Source: a virus
DNA length: 46,451 bases
Direction: 5' to 3' (one strand)
Virus record (IMG/VR): IMGVR_UViG_3300034103_002243
Span: 1-46,451 of that record
Shown here: piece by piece, positions 3,151 through 32,811 of the stretch
How positions within the stretch are numbered: the stretch's first letter is position 1
Layout of the letters: each line of letters starts with the position of its first letter
Notes under the pieces: generated by a model
What the model saw: only the letters and a program-made list of their open reading frames with translations
Databases searched by the model: none
What the model was told of the DNA's origin: nothing
Program-made: the position numbers and the translations under genes

Positions 3151-3174
3151 TTATGTTTGTTCTTGTAGGTTCAT
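3151..3174 (-). pseudogene. Vestigial leader mini-ORF (MNLQEQT)
   Basis: An ATG overlapping the stop of the 3171-3977 gene (ATGA) opens a 7-codon frame, MNLQEQT followed by TAA. Its first six residues are exactly the start of the class B leader MNLQEQISR used by genes at 3171, 3979 and 6880, and the DNA matches those copies. I read it as the decayed or deletion-truncated start of a former leader gene, although a functional micropeptide is not excluded. Confidence 0.55.
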
Positions 3175-3977
3175 ATTTTTTCTCCACCGATCAATTTTAA
3201 TCCTTCCCCTTCTTTCATTTGGATAATGTCTTTTAGGTGTCCCGCACCCACAAAATAAACTCCTGGTCCCGTGTTAATAAGAAATTTATCCCTCAGTGTT
3301 GTTGCTTTTCTTGCAACCTGTCCCGCTTTGTGGGGATATTCTTGCCAATTTTCTGGCCATTGTAGATCTTCCCCTTTGGTTAAAAAATCATCTAAATTTT
3401 CTTTATTTACTTCTTTTTTTGATAGTTTAATAAAATCTACATCATCTTCGCTGATATCTGTTAAAAAGTTTTCAAGATCTTTTTTATTTAAATCAAATTG
3501 ACCCATTTCGGCAGACCATGATGGAATTGTTCTAACAAGGAGATCAAAAATGGTTTCTCCTTCTTTTGCCTGTTTCATAAACTTTTCCAATCTATGATTT
3601 TCGTCCACATTAGAAAATAAGGCATATAAAAAAACTTTTTTGTCTTTATCTTTAATACCTCCTGATTTGATTAGTTTTTCATCCCAACTACCTTTATACA
3701 TTTTTGGATCTAAGTCTTTATAAAATTTGGAGTCAGTCACGGCTTTATTGTATTCTAATCCAATACCTTCTCCATAATAACCATATTTGTTTGCGACACT
3801 AATGACTTTTTTTTCTAAATTTTCCGATAATTCAATTGGTGTTTGGTGCATATCACCAACTAATATTTTGTTTTTACCGTCAAAAATGATTCCCCATGGA
3901 GCATAACTATTTTCTTTGGTTTCTATTATTAAACCCATCATTGATTTCATTCTTGATATTTGTTCTTGTAGATTCAT
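3171..3977 (-). CDS. Leader-bearing TraB/GumN-like protein
   Basis: 268 aa from the ATG at 3977; an in-frame upstream start (4055) would lie inside the preceding gene and lacks the leader. Residues 1-16 are MNLQEQISRMKSMMGL, followed by IIE|T, a [LI]xE-type site. The body has GDMH at 41-44 and VGAGHL at 243-248 near the C-terminus, a pairing reminiscent of the TraB/PrgY/GumN (Tiki) superfamily, whose GExH and GxGH motifs are thought to bind metal. The central part is Lys/Asp-rich and helical. Assignment rests on these two short motifs. Context suggests a virion cargo protein. Confidence 0.55.
   Translation of the reverse strand: MNLQEQISRMKSMMGLIIETKENSYAPWGIIFDGKNKILVGDMHQTPIELSENLEKKVISVANKYGYYGEGIGLEYNKAVTDSKFYKDLDPKMYKGSWDEKLIKSGGIKDKDKKVFLYALFSNVDENHRLEKFMKQAKEGETIFDLLVRTIPSWSAEMGQFDLNKKDLENFLTDISEDDVDFIKLSKKEVNKENLDDFLTKGEDLQWPENWQEYPHKAGQVARKATTLRDKFLINTGPGVYFVGAGHLKDIIQMKEGEGLKLIGGEKI
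3934..3977 (-). repeat. 44-nt leader DNA repeat, copy 1
   Basis: This segment encodes the first 15 residues of the 3171-3977 protein (MNLQEQISRMKSMMG, less one base). It matches 5084-5127 at 43 of 44 positions (one A/G difference), whereas the gene bodies are unrelated. It indicates recent leader duplication or exchange. Confidence 0.85.
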
Positions 3978-3978
3978 A

Positions 3979-5130
3979 TTACTTAAATGCTCTGTGTATA
4001 ACTTTAAAATTTTTCTTTTCTTCGGCTGGTAGTAATAGTGACTTATATTTATCACTCATTAAAGAAATCTTTTTACTCCCATCTTGTTCCCACTCTCCAT
4101 TAAAAGAATATATTTTATTTGTTTTTATATCCACAACTGTGTCTCCTCCTTTCGGTTCCAAATCTTTGTGTTTTTCTATTTTGTCCTCAATTGTTTTTTC
4201 AGAAGAAGAGTCCAAACTATCGTACCAATTCGTATAGTCTACACCTAATATTTCCTTTAATGCTGGAGATATTCTAACAGAACTTTTGTCTGTAAATTTA
4301 TTACTAACAAATTCATTAAAGATCTTTTTGAAATCGACATTTCCATTTCTATCAAAAATAAGAACCTGTTTTTGTAACAATAAAGACATTATATCATTAG
4401 CGTATTTGTCATTCGAAAGAAGATCTTGGTAAACCATTTTAATTTCAGGTGAATTTCCCATACTACTTGTAATGTAACCTAATTTTTTTATCATCGCTAG
4501 ATATATTAGTGTCCCAAGTTTTTTTCCTCTTAATCTTTCGGGAACCCCTTTGGGGAAATGTATTCTGTTTTCCCTTGGTTCAACTGTAACATAAATTTTT
4601 CTTTCCTCAACTGTTAGTTGATTGTTACACTCTTCAGGTAGTTTGATTCTGAAAACTTTACCACCCGGTTCGTTTATCCAATAACTCAATAGAGAGTCTT
4701 TGTCTTTAGCTGTTATTGGCCCTAAAATCTCAAAATTTGTTGGGTCACAACTAACTACACCACTTTGGATTTTATTATTATTATCATCTTCTTTACCATA
4801 ATGTTCAGCAAAAATATCATATAAAAGTGAATTAAATTTTTTAGATCCCATTGAAACCATGTAATTAACAAATCTGTTATCTATGTTGAGGTCGTCCGCT
4901 AATATCGGAGTTCCGTTTTCATCTTTTCCTTTTACAACAGAATTTTTAAACATAACAAAATCCCCATTAGAACTTTCTAACTTAGGTTTCAAAATACTAC
5001 TCAATTCCTCTTTATACTTAGGAAAGTTCTTTATGTTCATCGTAACATAAGAATCACTATCGATGTCAACTCTCTCTTCGAGTCCCATCATTGATTTCAT
5101 TCTTGATATTTGTTCTTGTAGGTTCATCAT
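3979..5130 (-). CDS. Leader-bearing protein with GNAT-like segment
   Basis: 383 aa. ATG 5130 overlaps the upstream stop (ATGA); the next codon (5127) is also ATG and gives exactly MNLQEQISRMKSMMGLEE. Residues 199-240 contain RLRGKKLGTLIYLAMIKKLG, similar to the acetyl-CoA-binding R/Q-x-x-G-x-G/A loop and following helix of GNAT acetyltransferases, and then MVYQDLL. The remainder (1-195 and 245-383) is not recognised. The C-terminus is lysine-rich with a KTNKIYSFNGEWEQDGSKK element that resembles a small beta domain. It may be a virion-packaged modifying enzyme; the acetyltransferase reading is tentative. Confidence 0.6.
   Translation of the reverse strand: MMNLQEQISRMKSMMGLEERVDIDSDSYVTMNIKNFPKYKEELSSILKPKLESSNGDFVMFKNSVVKGKDENGTPILADDLNIDNRFVNYMVSMGSKKFNSLLYDIFAEHYGKEDDNNNKIQSGVVSCDPTNFEILGPITAKDKDSLLSYWINEPGGKVFRIKLPEECNNQLTVEERKIYVTVEPRENRIHFPKGVPERLRGKKLGTLIYLAMIKKLGYITSSMGNSPEIKMVYQDLLSNDKYANDIMSLLLQKQVLIFDRNGNVDFKKIFNEFVSNKFTDKSSVRISPALKEILGVDYTNWYDSLDSSSEKTIEDKIEKHKDLEPKGGDTVVDIKTNKIYSFNGEWEQDGSKKISLMSDKYKSLLLPAEEKKNFKVIHRAFK
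5084..5127 (-). repeat. 44-nt leader DNA repeat, copy 2
   Basis: Second copy of the 3934-3977 repeat, encoding the leader of the 3979-5130 gene. A shorter, diverged relative of the same DNA word occurs at 7736-7764, and a truncated one at 3156-3174. Confidence 0.85.
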
Positions 5131-5963: not shown

Positions 5964-6875
5964 TTATAACTTATATCTATCTTTCACCGCATCAATAATC
6001 TTATAAAGATCTTTGGTGAATTCCTTAAATCCATCAGGATTATATTCTTTTATTTTATCAATGTAGAAATTGTGTTTGTCCAATAGGTTATTAGAAATTC
6101 CTAAGTCAATAATCTTATCTACCGTTCTTTCTACAAATTTTAATATTGATTGTAGTATATTTCTACTTTGAGTTCCTTGTATAAAGTCGTATGTGTCGTT
6201 TGAAAGTTTCTTTTCTTTTCCTGAATAAAAATCTAATAAGTCGTCTAAAACGGCTTTTACTTTATCTTTCTTTTCTTGAGGACTATCGATATTAATTGTT
6301 TTTTCTATCTTTGAAACCAAACTATCAAAGAAGTCTCCCGTCATTGCTTCAAACTCAAACCAACTACTAAAATATAATTTTTCATCTTTTGTATTATAGG
6401 GTATTTTAGTTTTATATTCATTCACATTTGGATCTTTAGCGTGAAGAAATTCATGTTTGATTGTTGAAGTTAAACTGTTTATTCCCGCTTCGCTGTCACC
6501 CGTTAAATCCTTGTATGTTTTATCAACACCTGTCAACATTCTTTTGAATGGTTTTTGTTGTATAACAATAATGTTATCGTCAGGGGTTTTTAAGTCATGA
6601 GCTTGATAATAACCATAAAGACCTGGTGCATCATTTGATACATAAAAAGTAACAACAGCATCTTTACCATCAGCATACTTATAATTTATTTCATCAACAT
6701 ATTCCATATCATTTGGGTCGATGTCAGATCCTGTAACAACTAAAGCTGTTTTACCTATAATGTCATTGAGTCTATCTTTTTCATCAGGTGTGATATAAAT
6801 TCTACCTTCATTAAGGGTTCTTTTGTTTGATCCCATCAACTCATGTATTCTTGATATTTGTTCGTTTAAATTCAT
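5964..6875 (-). CDS. Leader-bearing HExxH metallopeptidase-like protein
   Basis: 303 aa. Leader MNLNEQISRIHELMG continues to TLNE|G at 20-24, an excellent match to the (L/I)xE|G/A/S consensus of T4-type prohead proteases. Residues 141-145 are HEFLH inside a hydrophobic helix (SLTSTIKHEFLHAKDP), the zinc-binding motif of zincin peptidases; the third ligand is unclear, with Glu-rich helices following (WFEFEAMTGDFF near 172). The C-terminal third is helical. Inferred role: a packaged protease acting in the capsid, during injection or in the infected cell. A non-enzymatic HExxH coincidence is possible but unlikely in this helical setting. Confidence 0.65.
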   Translation of the reverse strand: MNLNEQISRIHELMGSNKRTLNEGRIYITPDEKDRLNDIIGKTALVVTGSDIDPNDMEYVDEINYKYADGKDAVVTFYVSNDAPGLYGYYQAHDLKTPDDNIIVIQQKPFKRMLTGVDKTYKDLTGDSEAGINSLTSTIKHEFLHAKDPNVNEYKTKIPYNTKDEKLYFSSWFEFEAMTGDFFDSLVSKIEKTINIDSPQEKKDKVKAVLDDLLDFYSGKEKKLSNDTYDFIQGTQSRNILQSILKFVERTVDKIIDLGISNNLLDKHNFYIDKIKEYNPDGFKEFTKDLYKIIDAVKDRYKL

Positions 6876-6879
6876 TTCT

Positions 6880-7764
6880 TTATGCTTGATGTGTTACAAA
6901 GTATTCAGTAATTTTACCAAAAGGTCCATTAACAACCTTAGTTACAGGTCCAATACATTCTTTACCTTGTTTAGTTAATTTGGTACATTTTCTTGACATT
7001 TTACCACCACCTGGATCATGATTCCATCCACCTCTACGATCTAACTGCCAAACCCCATCACCTTTAGTGATAGGAACCAATATACTTAACATAGAATCTT
7101 TACCATTTTTTCCTGTTTGGAAAGTTATTCCATCTATGTTTGGTTTCATTCCACCCTGAGCTAAAAATGGATTGATTTCACAAATCAAAACATTATATAA
7201 TTGGTGAATGGTATCACCACCATTCATGGCATGAGCAATTGATAATCCTGATGATGGACCATTATATGAAATTAAAAATCCTGAAGTATTTGCTTCTATT
7301 TTGATTTTATCACCCCATTTGGCTAAACCACCTTTACCTCTAAAAGCCTTACAAGATCTCCAATCAGAACCTACGATGTTATCTGAGGATATATTTTGTG
7401 TTCCTGATGTTCCTTTTGGAGCATTAGGGTCTAAACCTACAACTGTTTGTGTTTTGTTTTCTAATGGTGTTTTTTTACATCCTAACCACCCTTTGATTTT
7501 GTTATCTAATAAATCATTTAACTTCCCTCTTGTCTCAGGACCAACAATACCATCTATTCTTATATCTGTAAATGTTTGGAATTCTTTTACACAATCTTCA
7601 GTTTCTTGATCAAACTCACCTGTAACAGGAATCTTCATTAATTCTTGTACTGTTTCAACCTCATCATTTTCAACACCCATTTTCATAGGTTGAGTAAGAT
7701 ACTTAGACTCAGAAATAAATTGGATTACATTTTTTATTCTAGATATTTGTTCTTGTAGATTCAT
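6880..7764 (-). CDS. Leader-bearing peptidoglycan-binding protein
   Basis: 294 aa. Leader MNLQEQISRIKNVIQF then ISE|S at 17-20. Residues about 28-90 match a PG_binding_1 domain (VQELMKIPVTGEFDQETEDCVKEFQ, then IDGIVGPETRGKLNDLL). After a linker, a roughly 160-residue C-terminal domain contains two GG-rich loops and RRGGWNHDPGGGKMSRKCTK; it is not recognised and may be catalytic or a second binding domain. The protein could ride in the virion and engage the cell wall on entry. Its leader DNA is related to the 44-nt repeat. No classical lytic catalytic motif is visible. Confidence 0.7.
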   Translation of the reverse strand: MNLQEQISRIKNVIQFISESKYLTQPMKMGVENDEVETVQELMKIPVTGEFDQETEDCVKEFQTFTDIRIDGIVGPETRGKLNDLLDNKIKGWLGCKKTPLENKTQTVVGLDPNAPKGTSGTQNISSDNIVGSDWRSCKAFRGKGGLAKWGDKIKIEANTSGFLISYNGPSSGLSIAHAMNGGDTIHQLYNVLICEINPFLAQGGMKPNIDGITFQTGKNGKDSMLSILVPITKGDGVWQLDRRGGWNHDPGGGKMSRKCTKLTKQGKECIGPVTKVVNGPFGKITEYFVTHQA

Positions 7765-8700: not shown

Positions 8701-11700
8701 CTAAAACCAATAACCTCTCTCAACTGTTTCCATCATCCATGAAAGAATTGATAGTAACTCATCATTAGTTAGATTGTTTATAGTTGTTAGGTATTGGTCT
8801 TTGTCTTCTCTATGACCATATTCATCAATATGATACTCAATTATCTCAACAGCAATTTGGTCGCTGTCTTGAACCATTATGTCATTAACATACTTGGTAT
8901 TACTAAGTGGTATTTTCACACCAAAAAGAACTCCACTATTTTCACCACTATTTGGGTCATCTTCTATAACAAATTGCCTGATATATTGTTTTAATATTTC
9001 TTTAGGGTTATCTGTATGTTTTAACAACGATCTAACTTGATTGAATCCTAATCCTGTCATTTCAACAAAGTCATATAGTCCGTCTTTCTCTAATAGTTTA
9101 ACTAAAGATTTTTCTTTAATTGAGGATTCATTTATAGGATTCCATTTACAATTTGGTTTACCGTATGACCCAACATACAAATTATCTATTGGTAAATAAT
9201 CTTTAATGGTAGTTCTAACATTTATTCTCAATTTTGAAATGTGGCTTTGTATCATGGGCACATAAGAAAACTTATCATTCATTTCTTCCGTACTCATAAC
9301 AATATAAACACTATACATATCATCATCATCGTCATATGAAACATTTATATCACATACACCCACCTCGTCTTTGAATGGTTCTACAAGATCTTTAATAATA
9401 TTCAAATACTTTGGTTGTTTGTATTCTGATTCATTTATATCTCTATCGAAATGTATGTAATATTTGAAGTCCATAGGAAATACTTCCAAATCTTCCATGA
9501 CTTGTTTCCCAACTCTTTTAATAACAGAGTTAATTCCTCCACCCAATCTAATCGAGTCTTCAACATTAAAGAATATATTAACAATAACATCATCGTGTGT
9601 GTCTTCATAATACACAGTAAATTTTTTAACACTTGGATATTCGTTGGAGTTTAAATAATCTTCCACATTTTGAATCAATTTATTAAACTTTCTTTCTTGT
9701 TTAGATTCGTCAGATTCGTTTATAACATTACCTTCATCGTCATAGTCTATTTTTTGAACCTTAATAAAAATGTCTGGATTCTTATATTTCCAATCCCAAC
9801 CTAAAGCCCACCACGGAGCTAAAACAACACTATCTCCTGTCATTTCTTTAATTTCATCTATTATTCTATGAGTAAACCAATTATCGTAGTTTGCTGCGGT
9901 ATCCTCTACATCATGATAGACTTCGATAAGTGGTTTTCCTTCGTAATTTGTATTAACTTCAATAAATTCAACCTCATCAAAAAGACTATAAATCATTTCT
10001 TTTACTAACTTAAGTTTTTTGTCTTCTGATTCCATCAAATCATTCTTTGATGAATTCTCCCTTAATATTCTTCTTATTGATTCTTGTAACCTATTAGGCG
10101 AATCTTCAGGCCACGAATTTAAAACATCTTCACTACTTCCTGTTCCTTCATATTTTAGAGTTATTGCCTCTTTTGGAATATCTTGAAATGTTACAATATG
10201 TTTTGACCTTGACTCGAAATGTCTATCTTTAAACCATTTAACATCTGGAATCTTTGTTGTGTCAATAAACCAAATGTCGTCATCATATGTTGAATCAAAC
10301 CAAGATCTTTTGTTTGTTGAGTTGGTTGCAAATATTGCAGGTTTACATTTAACTCCATAACCTACATATATTTTGTAACATTCTCCAGCCCTTACTTTTA
10401 GACCATTTTCCATTATTTTATCTCTGGACATTGGGTTGGACTTGTGTATCACAATTTTATTAGGTATAACTTCTTTTCCTGCAGGAGAATAATCTTCTTC
10501 CCTTAATACTTTTCTTATTGATTCTTGAAGATCGTCCGTTGTATATTTTCTTTTCATTAACTTTTTATATCCATCACAAGAATTAACATGTGAAGCCATC
10601 ATTTCAATATTAAATGGGACAAACGATTTAATGTATTCGTGCAATTCTTCCATTAAATCCAATTCTTTATTTCGTACTGCTTGAGTTCTTGGCCATACTT
10701 TTGAATTTGGTCCACCAATAAAATAAACTTTGATTAAAAATGGAACATTATTCTTATTTAAGAAATTATATTGGTCCGTTCTTTCTTCAGGTGGTATTAT
10801 ATCAACACCACAAAAATGTTTATAATCAAAAACACCAGAAGAATCAATGATACCTTTGATTAACTTTGTTTGGTCTTTTTCACTTCTGTTTGAACTCTCG
10901 TTCATGAACTTAACCTCACCCTCACAATTATCCACAAACCACGGTGCAAAGATATACACTTTGATTCCCATAGATTTTATTGAATCTTCTAAAGAACTTA
11001 ATTCTTTAAGTATTTCATCACTATAAAAATGTCTTACAGTAGTCTTAGACCGTATGTCATATTCTTTATCGTCAGGATTGTATTCTGCCCATATATCACA
11101 AAGTCCATCCCAACTAACTAAAGATAACAATACATTTATTGCCCTTAGATTTTTGTCAATTTCACGATTATCACTTTCGTTTAAACTTTCAGACTCACCA
11201 TAAAGTTTGTCGTGTATTCTTTTCACATCTTCTTTTGAAAAAGGGAATTCTACATCATGTATATCGGTATTTTTACCATTTATTTGTCTAACATCAAAAT
11301 AACCAGAACTTTTAATTTCAGGTAAGTTGGTTTCTATCTTTCCTACAGTATTGTCATTTTGAATTGTGGCAAGGATAGTTATTAGTTTCTTTTTTTCCGC
11401 TGAAGTTAATTTACTGTCATCATAAATAAGATTCAATAAAGGCCAAGAATGCGTGCCCCATGTGTTTTTTTCAATACCTATTATTTCATATTCAATTGGG
11501 AATACAAAAAATCGAGGATCTTTAAACGCATCGTGATATTCGAAATCAACAACTCCTGTTAATCCATCCAATATTTTAGAAATTTCAGGATAGTTCTTGA
11601 ATATTTTTTTTAGGTTTTCTAACCCTCCGACCATGTCTGCAGCATCAAAAATATTACCATCTTCGATAACTTGTTTCAACTCTTGTTGGAGTCTACTTTC

Positions 11701-14959: not shown

Positions 14960-16645
14960 TTAGATTCTTGACGATAGTTGTTTTTTGGTAATTCGTCTAA
15001 CTTGTTCTTCAAGTTCTATTCCTAAATCAGGTTCGGATCTTTCATCTCCTGATGCTTTTATCTTATTTTTTAAGATTGATACGAACTCTGTTTGTATTTC
15101 TTTAACTAAATCAACAAATGTTTTCTTAGGTCTTTCAACTTCACCTGTAGACCAAGAACCTTCTTTATTAATTTGTCTAAGAGCCGCGTCTTTTTGTTTG
15201 TCAGAGATACTACCAAATCTTAATAACTTACCTTTAATGTCTTTAACAAAGTCATTACCTCCCTCGTAAGTTGCGATCGGTTGTAATTCAGCAGGAATTG
15301 ATTCAACATCAGTATTAGTTCTCATTTTTCTATCTCTCAACAAGAAACTTATTCCTGAGATATTAGTAATACATTTGTGACCACCTGAGTTTGCTTTGAT
15401 TACATCTAAACCATTAACAGTTATTTTATCTAACATATCTCTTTGTTTATCACTTAGTTTTCTGTATAAGTTTTGAGAAATGTTTCCAATAATATCTAAA
15501 GTACTTTTACCACCATCAACTTTATATGAAGGGGCATTACCATAAATTGCCATGAAATCTTTTAATGTGAATCCAACAGATCCAAACTCAGCCTCTTGTT
15601 CACCAACTCTTTTAAGATCACCAAAAGTCACTTTGATACTTTCTAATTCTGATGACATTTTATCTAAAACCTCATCCTTAACTTCACCTAAGTTAACACC
15701 TTTAAGTGCTCTATCTTTTTTGTATGGGTTACAAGATGCTTGAACCATTCCTAAATGCATTCCTGTTACTAAGAAATCAGCTTCAGGATAATTTTCAAAT
15801 GGTGTATAACGATCATAAGATCCTGGTTTCATCGTAGAACCAAAACCATATTGACTAATAACTCCATCAGAATATTCAACAGCACCTTCTTTCTTTCTTG
15901 ATTCAATGTAAGCTTCTTTATTTTGCTCTAACTTATCTAAAGTCGCATAACCTTTTTTCTCAATTTGATCTTTAATATTCATCAAAATACTAAGTAATGA
16001 TGGTTGAGCGTTTAATACAATATCACTCAAAAAATTAGGTTTGTTTTTAAAAGCTAATAATAGTTTGTTAGCAACAAATCCCATTTTTCTTTTATTTTCT
16101 TTGAACCCTTTTGTTCTATCAATTTGGAAAAGGTAATTGATAACATCTCTTGGTTTAATGTCGTGTCTTGCGAAGTCTGCAGAGTCAATAATTGAAATTG
16201 TTTCAACGTCTTCAGGTGGAAATATTTCAGATGGAGATACATTTTGTGAGATTGTTTCAACGTTAGATCTTGCAGACTTAAAATTTGTTGATGTATCACC
16301 TTCAACACCAGCTTGAGTATCGTGGTGGTCAGTATGAATAACAAACATTGGTTTACCGTGTGCAAAATCCACAAGAACTGGCATAATCTCACCTTCACCA
16401 TCAGGTTTTTTAACGGCAAATTCTTTTGCTCCATATTGGATTGGTTCGGCGTCTACAACCTTGATACCATTTCTTTCTAAATAATGTTTCATCGCTAAAG
16501 CAGTTGTAACACCATCTAAATCAAGGTGAAAGTAGATTTTAGCCATTTTATATCTTTTAGCAAGATTCTTAATGTCACGAATACCACCTTCAGTTAAAAG
16601 TGATTTTGTTTCTTCCTTTAGTATTCTTTTAATTAAATTTTTCAC
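14960..16645 (-). CDS. Leader-bearing DHH-family phosphoesterase
   Basis: 561 aa with a GTG start that overlaps the upstream TAG by one base. MKNLIKRILKE|E is the class A leader, with a second site LTE|G at 17-20. The body has the motifs of DHH phosphoesterases: DLDG (42-45), Asp93 in LVDFAHG, DHH (106-108), Asp154 in IIDSADF and GGHK (421-424) of the C-terminal DHHA1-type substrate domain. DHH enzymes include RecJ, NrnA oligoribonucleases and cyclic-dinucleotide phosphodiesterases; the substrate here cannot be assigned. The leader implies virion packaging and delivery at infection, which would suit degradation of a nucleotide defence signal or of host nucleic acid. Confidence 0.82.
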   Translation of the reverse strand: MKNLIKRILKEETKSLLTEGGIRDIKNLAKRYKMAKIYFHLDLDGVTTALAMKHYLERNGIKVVDAEPIQYGAKEFAVKKPDGEGEIMPVLVDFAHGKPMFVIHTDHHDTQAGVEGDTSTNFKSARSNVETISQNVSPSEIFPPEDVETISIIDSADFARHDIKPRDVINYLFQIDRTKGFKENKRKMGFVANKLLLAFKNKPNFLSDIVLNAQPSLLSILMNIKDQIEKKGYATLDKLEQNKEAYIESRKKEGAVEYSDGVISQYGFGSTMKPGSYDRYTPFENYPEADFLVTGMHLGMVQASCNPYKKDRALKGVNLGEVKDEVLDKMSSELESIKVTFGDLKRVGEQEAEFGSVGFTLKDFMAIYGNAPSYKVDGGKSTLDIIGNISQNLYRKLSDKQRDMLDKITVNGLDVIKANSGGHKCITNISGISFLLRDRKMRTNTDVESIPAELQPIATYEGGNDFVKDIKGKLLRFGSISDKQKDAALRQINKEGSWSTGEVERPKKTFVDLVKEIQTEFVSILKNKIKASGDERSEPDLGIELEEQVRRITKKQLSSRI

Positions 16646-17611: not shown

Positions 17612-17625
17612 TTTAGTAATAGAAA

Positions 17626-17650
17626 AATCCCCACCTTTTGAGTGGGGATT
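17626..17650 (-). terminator. Intrinsic terminator after yceI-like gene
   Basis: AATCCCCAC (17626-17634) pairs with GTGGGGATT (17642-17650) around a 7-nt loop and is followed on the minus strand by TTTTTC. Its 19-nt core CCCCACCTTTTGAGTGGGG is identical to that of the terminator at 19791-19814. Confidence 0.88.
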
Positions 17651-19758: not shown

Positions 19759-19790
19759 AAGAAAATTTAATCATTTTTTATAAAATAATA

Positions 19791-19814
19791 AACCCCACCT
19801 TTTGAGTGGGGGTT
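19791..19814 (-). terminator. Intrinsic terminator after the 29-aa gene
   Basis: AACCCCAC (19791-19798) pairs with GTGGGGGTT (19806-19814, one extra G). The core 19 nt are identical to the 17626-17650 terminator. It lies 4 nt after the stop of the 19819-19908 gene on the minus strand, with a T-rich stretch following. Confidence 0.8.
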
Positions 19815-31977: not shown

Positions 31978-32811
31978 ATGGATCCAAATAAAATTCTTTT
32001 ACTCGTAAAATTCACAAAACAAATACATAAGTCTTTGGAGGATTCTTCTAATCCTAAAATTTTTAATACTGTTGCAGATATTAAATACGAAATCCATGAA
32101 GACGATTTTTTAAGTTTATATCTTTCCAAGTTAAATGGATCTGAAGAAATGTACTTATTTTTTTCAATCTATTACTATCACATAACAGGTGATGTTGCAA
32201 AATCAGTAAAGTATGTTTTAGAAAATCTTAAAGGTTACCAGTTTTTTGTATATGAAGAATTTGGTTATTTAGAGGAGGACTGTTCGTCATGTGATGGGAG
32301 TGGTAAAGAAGCTTGTGATAATTGTGATGGTCAAGGTAATGTAATCTGTAGGTCATGTGATGGTGATGGTAAAGAAGATTGTTCTACTTGTGATGGTACA
32401 GGTGAGGATGATGAAGGCGATGCTTGTGGTGAATGTAATGGAACTGGTGATAAAATTTGTAATGAATGTGATGGTAGAGGTGATGAGATGTGTTACAGTT
32501 GTGATGGCGACGGAGAATTTGATTGTAATAATTGCGATGGTCGTGGGAATGTAGAAACAGATATCATGGGTTACGATGAATTCTACGATAAAGTATATAC
32601 CACAAATAAACTTGGTGATATGGATGACGACATTCCTTTTGAGGGGCGTTATTATAATTCATTAGTACTCAAACAACCTTTCTTAAGAGAAAGGAACTTT
32701 AGAGAAACTTACAGTATGGAAGATATCAAATACGATTGGAATGTAGGTAATGAAATAGATGATCTAAATGATAATAACTTTGTTTTCTTTGGTGGTAAAT
32801 TATTACTGTAA
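31978..32811 (+). CDS. Protein with eight DnaJ-type CxxCxGxG motifs
   Basis: 277 aa. Residues 1-95 are helical without the J domain HPD motif. About 100-195 contain eight CxxCxGxG repeats (CSSCDGSG, CDNCDGQG, CRSCDGDG, CSTCDGTG, CGECNGTG, CNECDGRG, CYSCDGDG, CNNCDGRG), twice the four found in DnaJ, with very acidic spacers. The C-terminal 80 residues are unrelated to DnaJ. The domain should bind about four zinc ions and could bind unfolded proteins or act as a scaffold. It lies on the plus strand and overlaps the convergent 32803 gene by 9 bp. Confidence 0.8.
   Translation: MDPNKILLLVKFTKQIHKSLEDSSNPKIFNTVADIKYEIHEDDFLSLYLSKLNGSEEMYLFFSIYYYHITGDVAKSVKYVLENLKGYQFFVYEEFGYLEEDCSSCDGSGKEACDNCDGQGNVICRSCDGDGKEDCSTCDGTGEDDEGDACGECNGTGDKICNECDGRGDEMCYSCDGDGEFDCNNCDGRGNVETDIMGYDEFYDKVYTTNKLGDMDDDIPFEGRYYNSLVLKQPFLRERNFRETYSMEDIKYDWNVGNEIDDLNDNNFVFFGGKLLL

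Follow-up and report, generated by a model that had tools for sequence, protein, structure and literature searches.

The internal-protein (IP) loci of T-even phages, with their capsid-targeting sequence, offer the closest described parallel to the genes reported here. T-even IP loci combine a short conserved N-terminal leader with otherwise dissimilar bodies at polymorphic loci, and they are associated with a gp21-type protease, a gp23 capsid protein, and an [LIVM]xE-like site. Promoter-bearing flanks are said to have been proposed for these loci by Repoila et al. in 1994. The capsid-targeting sequences of T4 are propeptides of 10 to 19 residues that are removed by gp21 (PMC9026906; also PMC3012670 and PMC12373910), and a review suggested that such a tag enables T4-like phages to acquire a variety of proteins (PMC9026906). 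We draw on the T-even IP and capsid-targeting work (Repoila et al. 1994; Mullaney and Black 1996) as relayed by PMC12373910, PMC3012670, and PMC9026906. In the phiKZ-like giants SPN3US and phiKZ, according to an excerpt of PMC5694885, many head and ejection proteins are cut at xxE by a prohead protease, with extra sites in the propeptides.

Here, we describe a leader family in a virus contig fragment from IMG/VR (46,451 bases, GC 31.7%, without any tRNA gene found over that length; hereafter, the window) and in related contigs. As at T-even IP loci, a conserved short N-terminal leader precedes unrelated bodies (71 leader genes with about 40 body families across the contigs sampled), close relatives are polymorphic in gene number, order, and identity, and the relatives encode an S77 protease and a gp23-type capsid protein. 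The principle of a conserved targeting leader joined to diverse bodies at polymorphic loci is already known from the T-even IPs. The leader sequence, however, differs from the T-even one, the roughly 40 body families compare with about 10 reported IPs, and breakpoints fall in the leader-coding DNA of tightly packed genes and also at the modules of a polyprotein. A literature search found no leader-coding-DNA breakpoints, no repertoire of such size, and no polyprotein level. Predicted prohead protease processing at an E motif is shared with SPN3US and phiKZ, as far as they are covered by the excerpt of PMC5694885; the phiKZ-like propeptides described there differ in being mostly long, in forming paralogue families, and in being cut at S/A-x-E, and the excerpt notes no swapping of cassettes at a common leader. 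The cultured Flavobacterium phage immuto (Immutovirus) resembles the relatives of the window in having gp23 together with a serine protease of the prohead core, and leader-type starts are no commoner among its genes than in internal windows (0.16 versus 0.17). We propose that the leader is quite probably a capsid-targeting propeptide of a large, T4-like phage and that it doubles as a recombination adaptor for cargo bodies.

A leader shared by unrelated genes

The genes P1 to P5 lie on the minus strand near one end of the window (Table 1). The shared leader DNA of P1 and P2 is ATGAA[T/C]CTACAAGAACAAATATCAAGAATGAAATCAATGATGGG, encoding the peptide MNLQEQISRMKSMMG. A first-pass annotation of this DNA had claimed 43/44 identity between these two leaders and unrelated bodies behind them; the identity was reproduced exactly, and a P1 query against the window matches P2 over residues 1 to 29 only. 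The 29-nt relative that it placed at 7736 to 7764 is also real (28/29 versus the P2 leader), and there are further copies: a fourth in P4, a diverged one that opens P5 (5957), and an orphan at 3174.

Table 1. Positions of leader copies, genes, and polyprotein features in the window (a slash marks a predicted site)
Feature	Position	Strand	Remarks
Orphan leader, no body	3151..3174	-	MNLQEQT, then stop; ATG at 3174 overlaps P2 stop codon
Gene P2, 268 aa	3171..3977	-	ILVGDMHQ and GVYFVGAGHL motifs; function unassigned
P2 leader	3934..3977	-	MNLQEQISRMKSMMG; 43/44 versus P1 leader
Gene P1, 382 aa	3979..5127	-	Slot in sister contig without P1
P1 leader	5084..5127	-	Plus 3 bases: 47/47 versus leader of unrelated body A (sister contig)
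Gene P5, 276 aa	5127..5957	-	Second leader sub-type, MNLREHIKKVLKE/E
Gene P4, 303 aa	5964..6875	-	Leader 6832-6875, MNLNEQISRIHELMG; HEFLH motif (by eye)
Gene P3, 294 aa	6880..7764	-	Leader from 7764 down, MNLQEQISRIKNVIQFISE; PG_binding_1 domain
Apparent cargo polyprotein, 1009 aa	8701..11730	-	Modules split by [LIVM]NE/S or LRE/ sites
Module M7, residues 768-868	9127..9429	-	Missing in G011 orthologue; join at INE/S
Module M6, residues 673-767	9430..9714	-	92% identical DNA in G008; neighbours 72-77%
Internal leader-like LQESIRRILRE	10057..10089	-	In polyprotein; repeat family D11
Internal leader-like LQESIRKVLRE	10498..10530	-	In polyprotein; repeat family D11
Module M2, residues 186-278	10897..11175	-	Missing in G011 orthologue; join at LNE/S

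Searches of Pfam and PHROGs returned no match for P1, P2, or P4 and no internal-protein match among P1 to P5. AlphaFold models were poor (mean pLDDT 58 for P1 and 68 for P2), with the leader modeled as a low-confidence helix, and a PDB fold search with P2 gave no credible match. Homologues of P1 that are 61 to 67% identical occur in contigs L003, L004, and L006, and the P2 body stands in L009 behind a different leader, MKYLKTYKLFEFN. Cargo bodies include ADP-ribosyltransferase-like, acetyltransferase-like, and kinase-like proteins; for instance, the body of one leader gene (L034:4020-4616) matches ART-PolyVal, an ADP-ribosyltransferase family, at E 1.5e-19. Elsewhere in the window, positions 31978 to 32811 hold Cys-rich repeats (CDGxG; repeat family D1) with the look of a DnaJ zinc finger, and near-identical terminator-like hairpins, CCCCACCTTTTGAGTGGGG, lie at 17612 to 17650 and 19776 to 19814 (repeat family D18).

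The leader pattern matches nine times in the window, against 3.0 matches expected and a maximum of 8 in 100 shuffles, and two scans by pattern through genomes of bacteria and archaea turned up no leader. Most of the leader genes begin at an upstream stop codon or overlap it. Orphan or decayed leaders are frequent in relatives, contig L102 carries six leader cassettes back to back, and exactly the same 44 nt precede five unrelated bodies in five contigs. Codon choice is also biased: Leu3 is encoded by the rare codon CTA in 52 of the 71 leaders versus 9% in bodies and 11% near other gene starts (Fisher P about 7e-30, for genes that are related by descent and not independent draws), and leader Ser is TCA in 95% of cases versus 37% in bodies and 36% at the starts of other genes. 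Because this bias is absent from other gene starts, we conclude that the leader DNA was inherited from a common source.

Neither the window nor its sister fragment covers the head genes, and evidence on the capsid comes from relatives. Peptidase_S77, the gp21-type prohead protease, is encoded by G008 (E 5.6e-24) and G011 (E 9.9e-24), a gp23-type capsid protein by G008, G011, and G016, and a T4-type terminase is also present in relatives. An [LIVM]xE motif occurs within leader residues 9 to 28 in 68 of 71 leaders (96%) versus 29% of windows from their own bodies; for [LI]xE, in line with a gp21-type motif, the values are 89% and 20%. The capsid proteins of relatives show a predicted maturation site, LINE/A, that resembles the [LIVM]xE of the leader and whose position we take to be where T4 gp23 is matured. 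It is this match in anatomy and partners with the T4 system that leads us to read the leader as capsid-targeting, and by analogy the leader proteins would be packaged, cleaved, and injected. What the first-pass annotation had called a packaging signal thus finds strong, if indirect, support in the S77 protease and gp23 of relatives and in the [LIVM]xE at leader ends, and we treat it as a putative capsid-targeting sequence.

Other gene starts in these contigs are also shared among different genes. Most genes between 11727 and 17634 are headed by leaders of a second class, M(K/R)xLIRxILKE/, which is of a capsid-targeting-like type but of different sequence. Three small tandem genes at 878 to 1713 share the start MKDLxKYIxxLxD, and in L037 and L045 related bodies follow a second leader that belongs to the main type. 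Tandem genes at about 234,000 to 238,000 of G011 (L073) have another leader, MKR(I/V)xRLTESDLxRIVRRVIxE, in front of different bodies. A DHH-like protein of 561 aa (14960 to 16645) has orthologues in phages of 634 to 642 kb with other starts (MISKYNQFINE/ and MLRKYGQFINE/); with such differing starts among orthologues, it appears to be one more leader exchange. Phages of 634 to 735 kb were considered as kin and rejected, as the tblastn links are single genes and the genomes are without the leader and have other starts, such as MKYLKxFE.

Breakpoints and unequal divergence at leaders

The sister contig, IMGVR_UViG_3300003413_000606, is syntenic with the window, and most aligned blocks are 90 to 98% identical. 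Homology extends through P2 and ends 4 nt upstream of the P2 leader. In the interval between P5 and P2 of the sister, A (257 aa) and B (120 aa), each with its own leader, replace P1; the A and P1 leaders agree at 47 of 47 nt, and the sequences beyond them are unrelated. The C-terminal part of P5 is missing in the sister, whereas L092 has the full form and L093 and L096 have partial ones. Because P5 is shortened in the sister, one of the breakpoints lies inside P5 and not at a leader. The P5-A junction of the sister recurs in L040, a contig of another sample, at 99.88% identity. Body A is also present in L051, where it is 95% identical from inside its leader into the next leader; other genes of L051 are 65 to 75% identical, and the contig ends soon after body A. 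L006 carries A and P1 in tandem. The difference between the window and its sister could reflect either import or the shortening of a longer ancestral array, and the two cannot be told apart there.

Further replacements occur among other relatives. Contigs L018 and L020 share 6,051 nt at 99.4% identity and then have different bodies after leader base 43, the alternative body of L020 being present in one contig only. L032 and L043 match at 98.2% over 924 nt and diverge after an identical leader; the counterpart of the L032 body lies about 4.6 kb away in L043, where the leader before it differs in its bases, so the leader resident in L032 precedes a body from another place. A cassette of 469 nt, 96.8% identical and leader-bounded on both sides, is common to G011 and L046. 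Across all pairs, the alignments have 126 internal ends, of which 21 lie at leaders in both genomes, with about 6 expected; since alignment ends are not independent, the nominal P (7e-7) is only a guide.

Leaders and bodies also diverge unequally, and they do so in both directions. Between G011 and L041, a body is 92% identical at the nucleotide level and its leader 59% (P about 2e-9), whereas between L045 and L037 a body is 66% identical and its leader 93% (P about 2e-5). In several P1 and A orthologue pairs, discordance between leader and body was not significant (P 0.11 to 0.14).

These comparisons bear on the central proposal of the first-pass annotation, that short homologous leaders let new bodies be placed behind an existing leader. 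Body replacement with breakpoints at the leader, which it had suggested looking for, is seen in the window and its sister, L018 and L020, L032 and L043, and L046 and G011, and the strict co-inheritance with equal divergence that would have spoken against it is contradicted by G011/L041 and L045/L037. Together, the replacements and the unequal divergence argue that new bodies can indeed come to stand behind resident leaders. Of the rapid turnover that it had also asserted, what stands is that contigs 99.4% identical already differ.

An apparent polyprotein divided at the same motif

A large gene farther along the window apparently encodes a cargo polyprotein, with module sites after residues 185, 278, 411, 558, 672, 767, and 868. 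There are five internal [LIVM]NE/S sites, where 0.8 would be expected (P about 0.002, uncorrected for the singling out of this protein). Besides the losses of modules in G011, modules are permuted in G008, where the M6 block both begins and ends at, or a few residues from, INES motifs. Moreover, homologues of M1, M3, M4, and M8 are free genes behind leaders, and the match starts at or just after the E.

With modules lost and permuted at the motifs and with free leader genes matching some of them, exchange at a predicted protease-site adaptor is observed within one gene as well as between genes. We therefore consider a reading in which a protease-site adaptor acts at two levels, heading free cargo genes and separating the modules of a head-delivered polyprotein, with modules gained, lost, and permuted at [LIVM]NE/S and exchanged with free leader genes. 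We give this extension about an even chance.

Leader recombination and alternative explanations

As we picture it, the leader would be an N-terminal propeptide, a short predicted helix ending in an [LIVM]xE prohead-protease site, that directs numerous unrelated cargo proteins into the prohead core before being cut off. Its coding DNA, derived from one ancestral sequence, has spread by descent. Since that DNA is near identical before many bodies, it can serve as a short stretch of homology, and recombination between leader copies, either within a genome or with co-infecting relatives, would delete, insert, or replace bodies while the leader stays in frame. Homologous recombination between short leaders would be the simplest account of the mechanism. 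Among the genes of G011 are those for an SbcC/Rad50-like ATPase and an SbcD-like phosphoesterase, and its RecA-like match is weak and sub-threshold.

It is barely credible that the leaders are alike merely through a constrained targeting peptide and the codon usage of gene starts, with no recombination at that place. The peptide is conserved, and the P1/P2 pair alone gives a codon-model P of 0.007, which is not vanishing (independent coding with the codon usage of the window reaches such identity in 0.7% of draws). Nevertheless, the CTA and TCA preferences, set against the gene-start control, together with body replacements at leader breakpoints between near-identical contigs, which constraint leaves unexplained, rule out convergence or codon bias as the sole cause. 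The replacements weigh as well against gene conversion, in which bodies would stay put while leaders are homogenized. Some orthologous bodies do bear leaders of their own genome, such as P1 in L003, L004, and L006 (MNLQENI) versus the window, but conversion cannot yield body replacements at one slot, and leaders that precede different bodies do not resemble each other more within genomes (0.705) than between them (0.729); we regard it as very unlikely. A highly improbable source of the pattern is an assembler misled by near-identical 44-nt repeats into misjoining at leaders. All relatives compared are metagenomic contigs, the alternative body of L020 rests on a single one, and the L051 case is near a contig end. 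Against this, the P5-A junction is repeated in another sample, both sister flanks regain synteny and would require two errors, and the same pattern appears in diverged contigs (70 to 95%) and in polyprotein modules without a 44-nt repeat.

On a loss-only account, a long ancestral leader array might have been trimmed between repeats without the import of any body, as the A and P1 tandem in L006, the frequent orphan leaders, and the six-cassette array of L102 would suggest. Loss from longer leader arrays probably contributes too; as the whole explanation it is unlikely, given the L032 body behind a resident leader with its L043 counterpart at another place behind another leader, the high identity of body A in L051 relative to the other genes there, and the conserved bodies but divergent leaders of G011 and L041. 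Finally, the leader might be shuffled yet direct proteins elsewhere or aid translation. Some cargo, for example the PG-binding protein, could have its site of action elsewhere, and the evidence for packaging is indirect; on the other side stand the gp21-type protease and gp23 of the relatives, leader ends like the predicted capsid site, and polyprotein modules divided by the same motif, and we judge such another function unlikely. A capsid-targeting leader that doubles as a recombination adaptor is the reading that we prefer.

That reading takes an old suggestion about capsid tags in T4-like phages to recombination events mapped between natural relatives. In this group of large, T4-like phages, all of them seen in metagenomes only, a probable head-packing tag doubles as the point at which cargo is plugged in. 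The cargo genes can be found by the leader alone, without homology between bodies, and their roughly 40 unrelated families are candidate injected effectors or anti-defense proteins. If the two-level reading is true, then the head would carry a combinatorial, protease-released arsenal that is built by recombination at its own cleavage sites.
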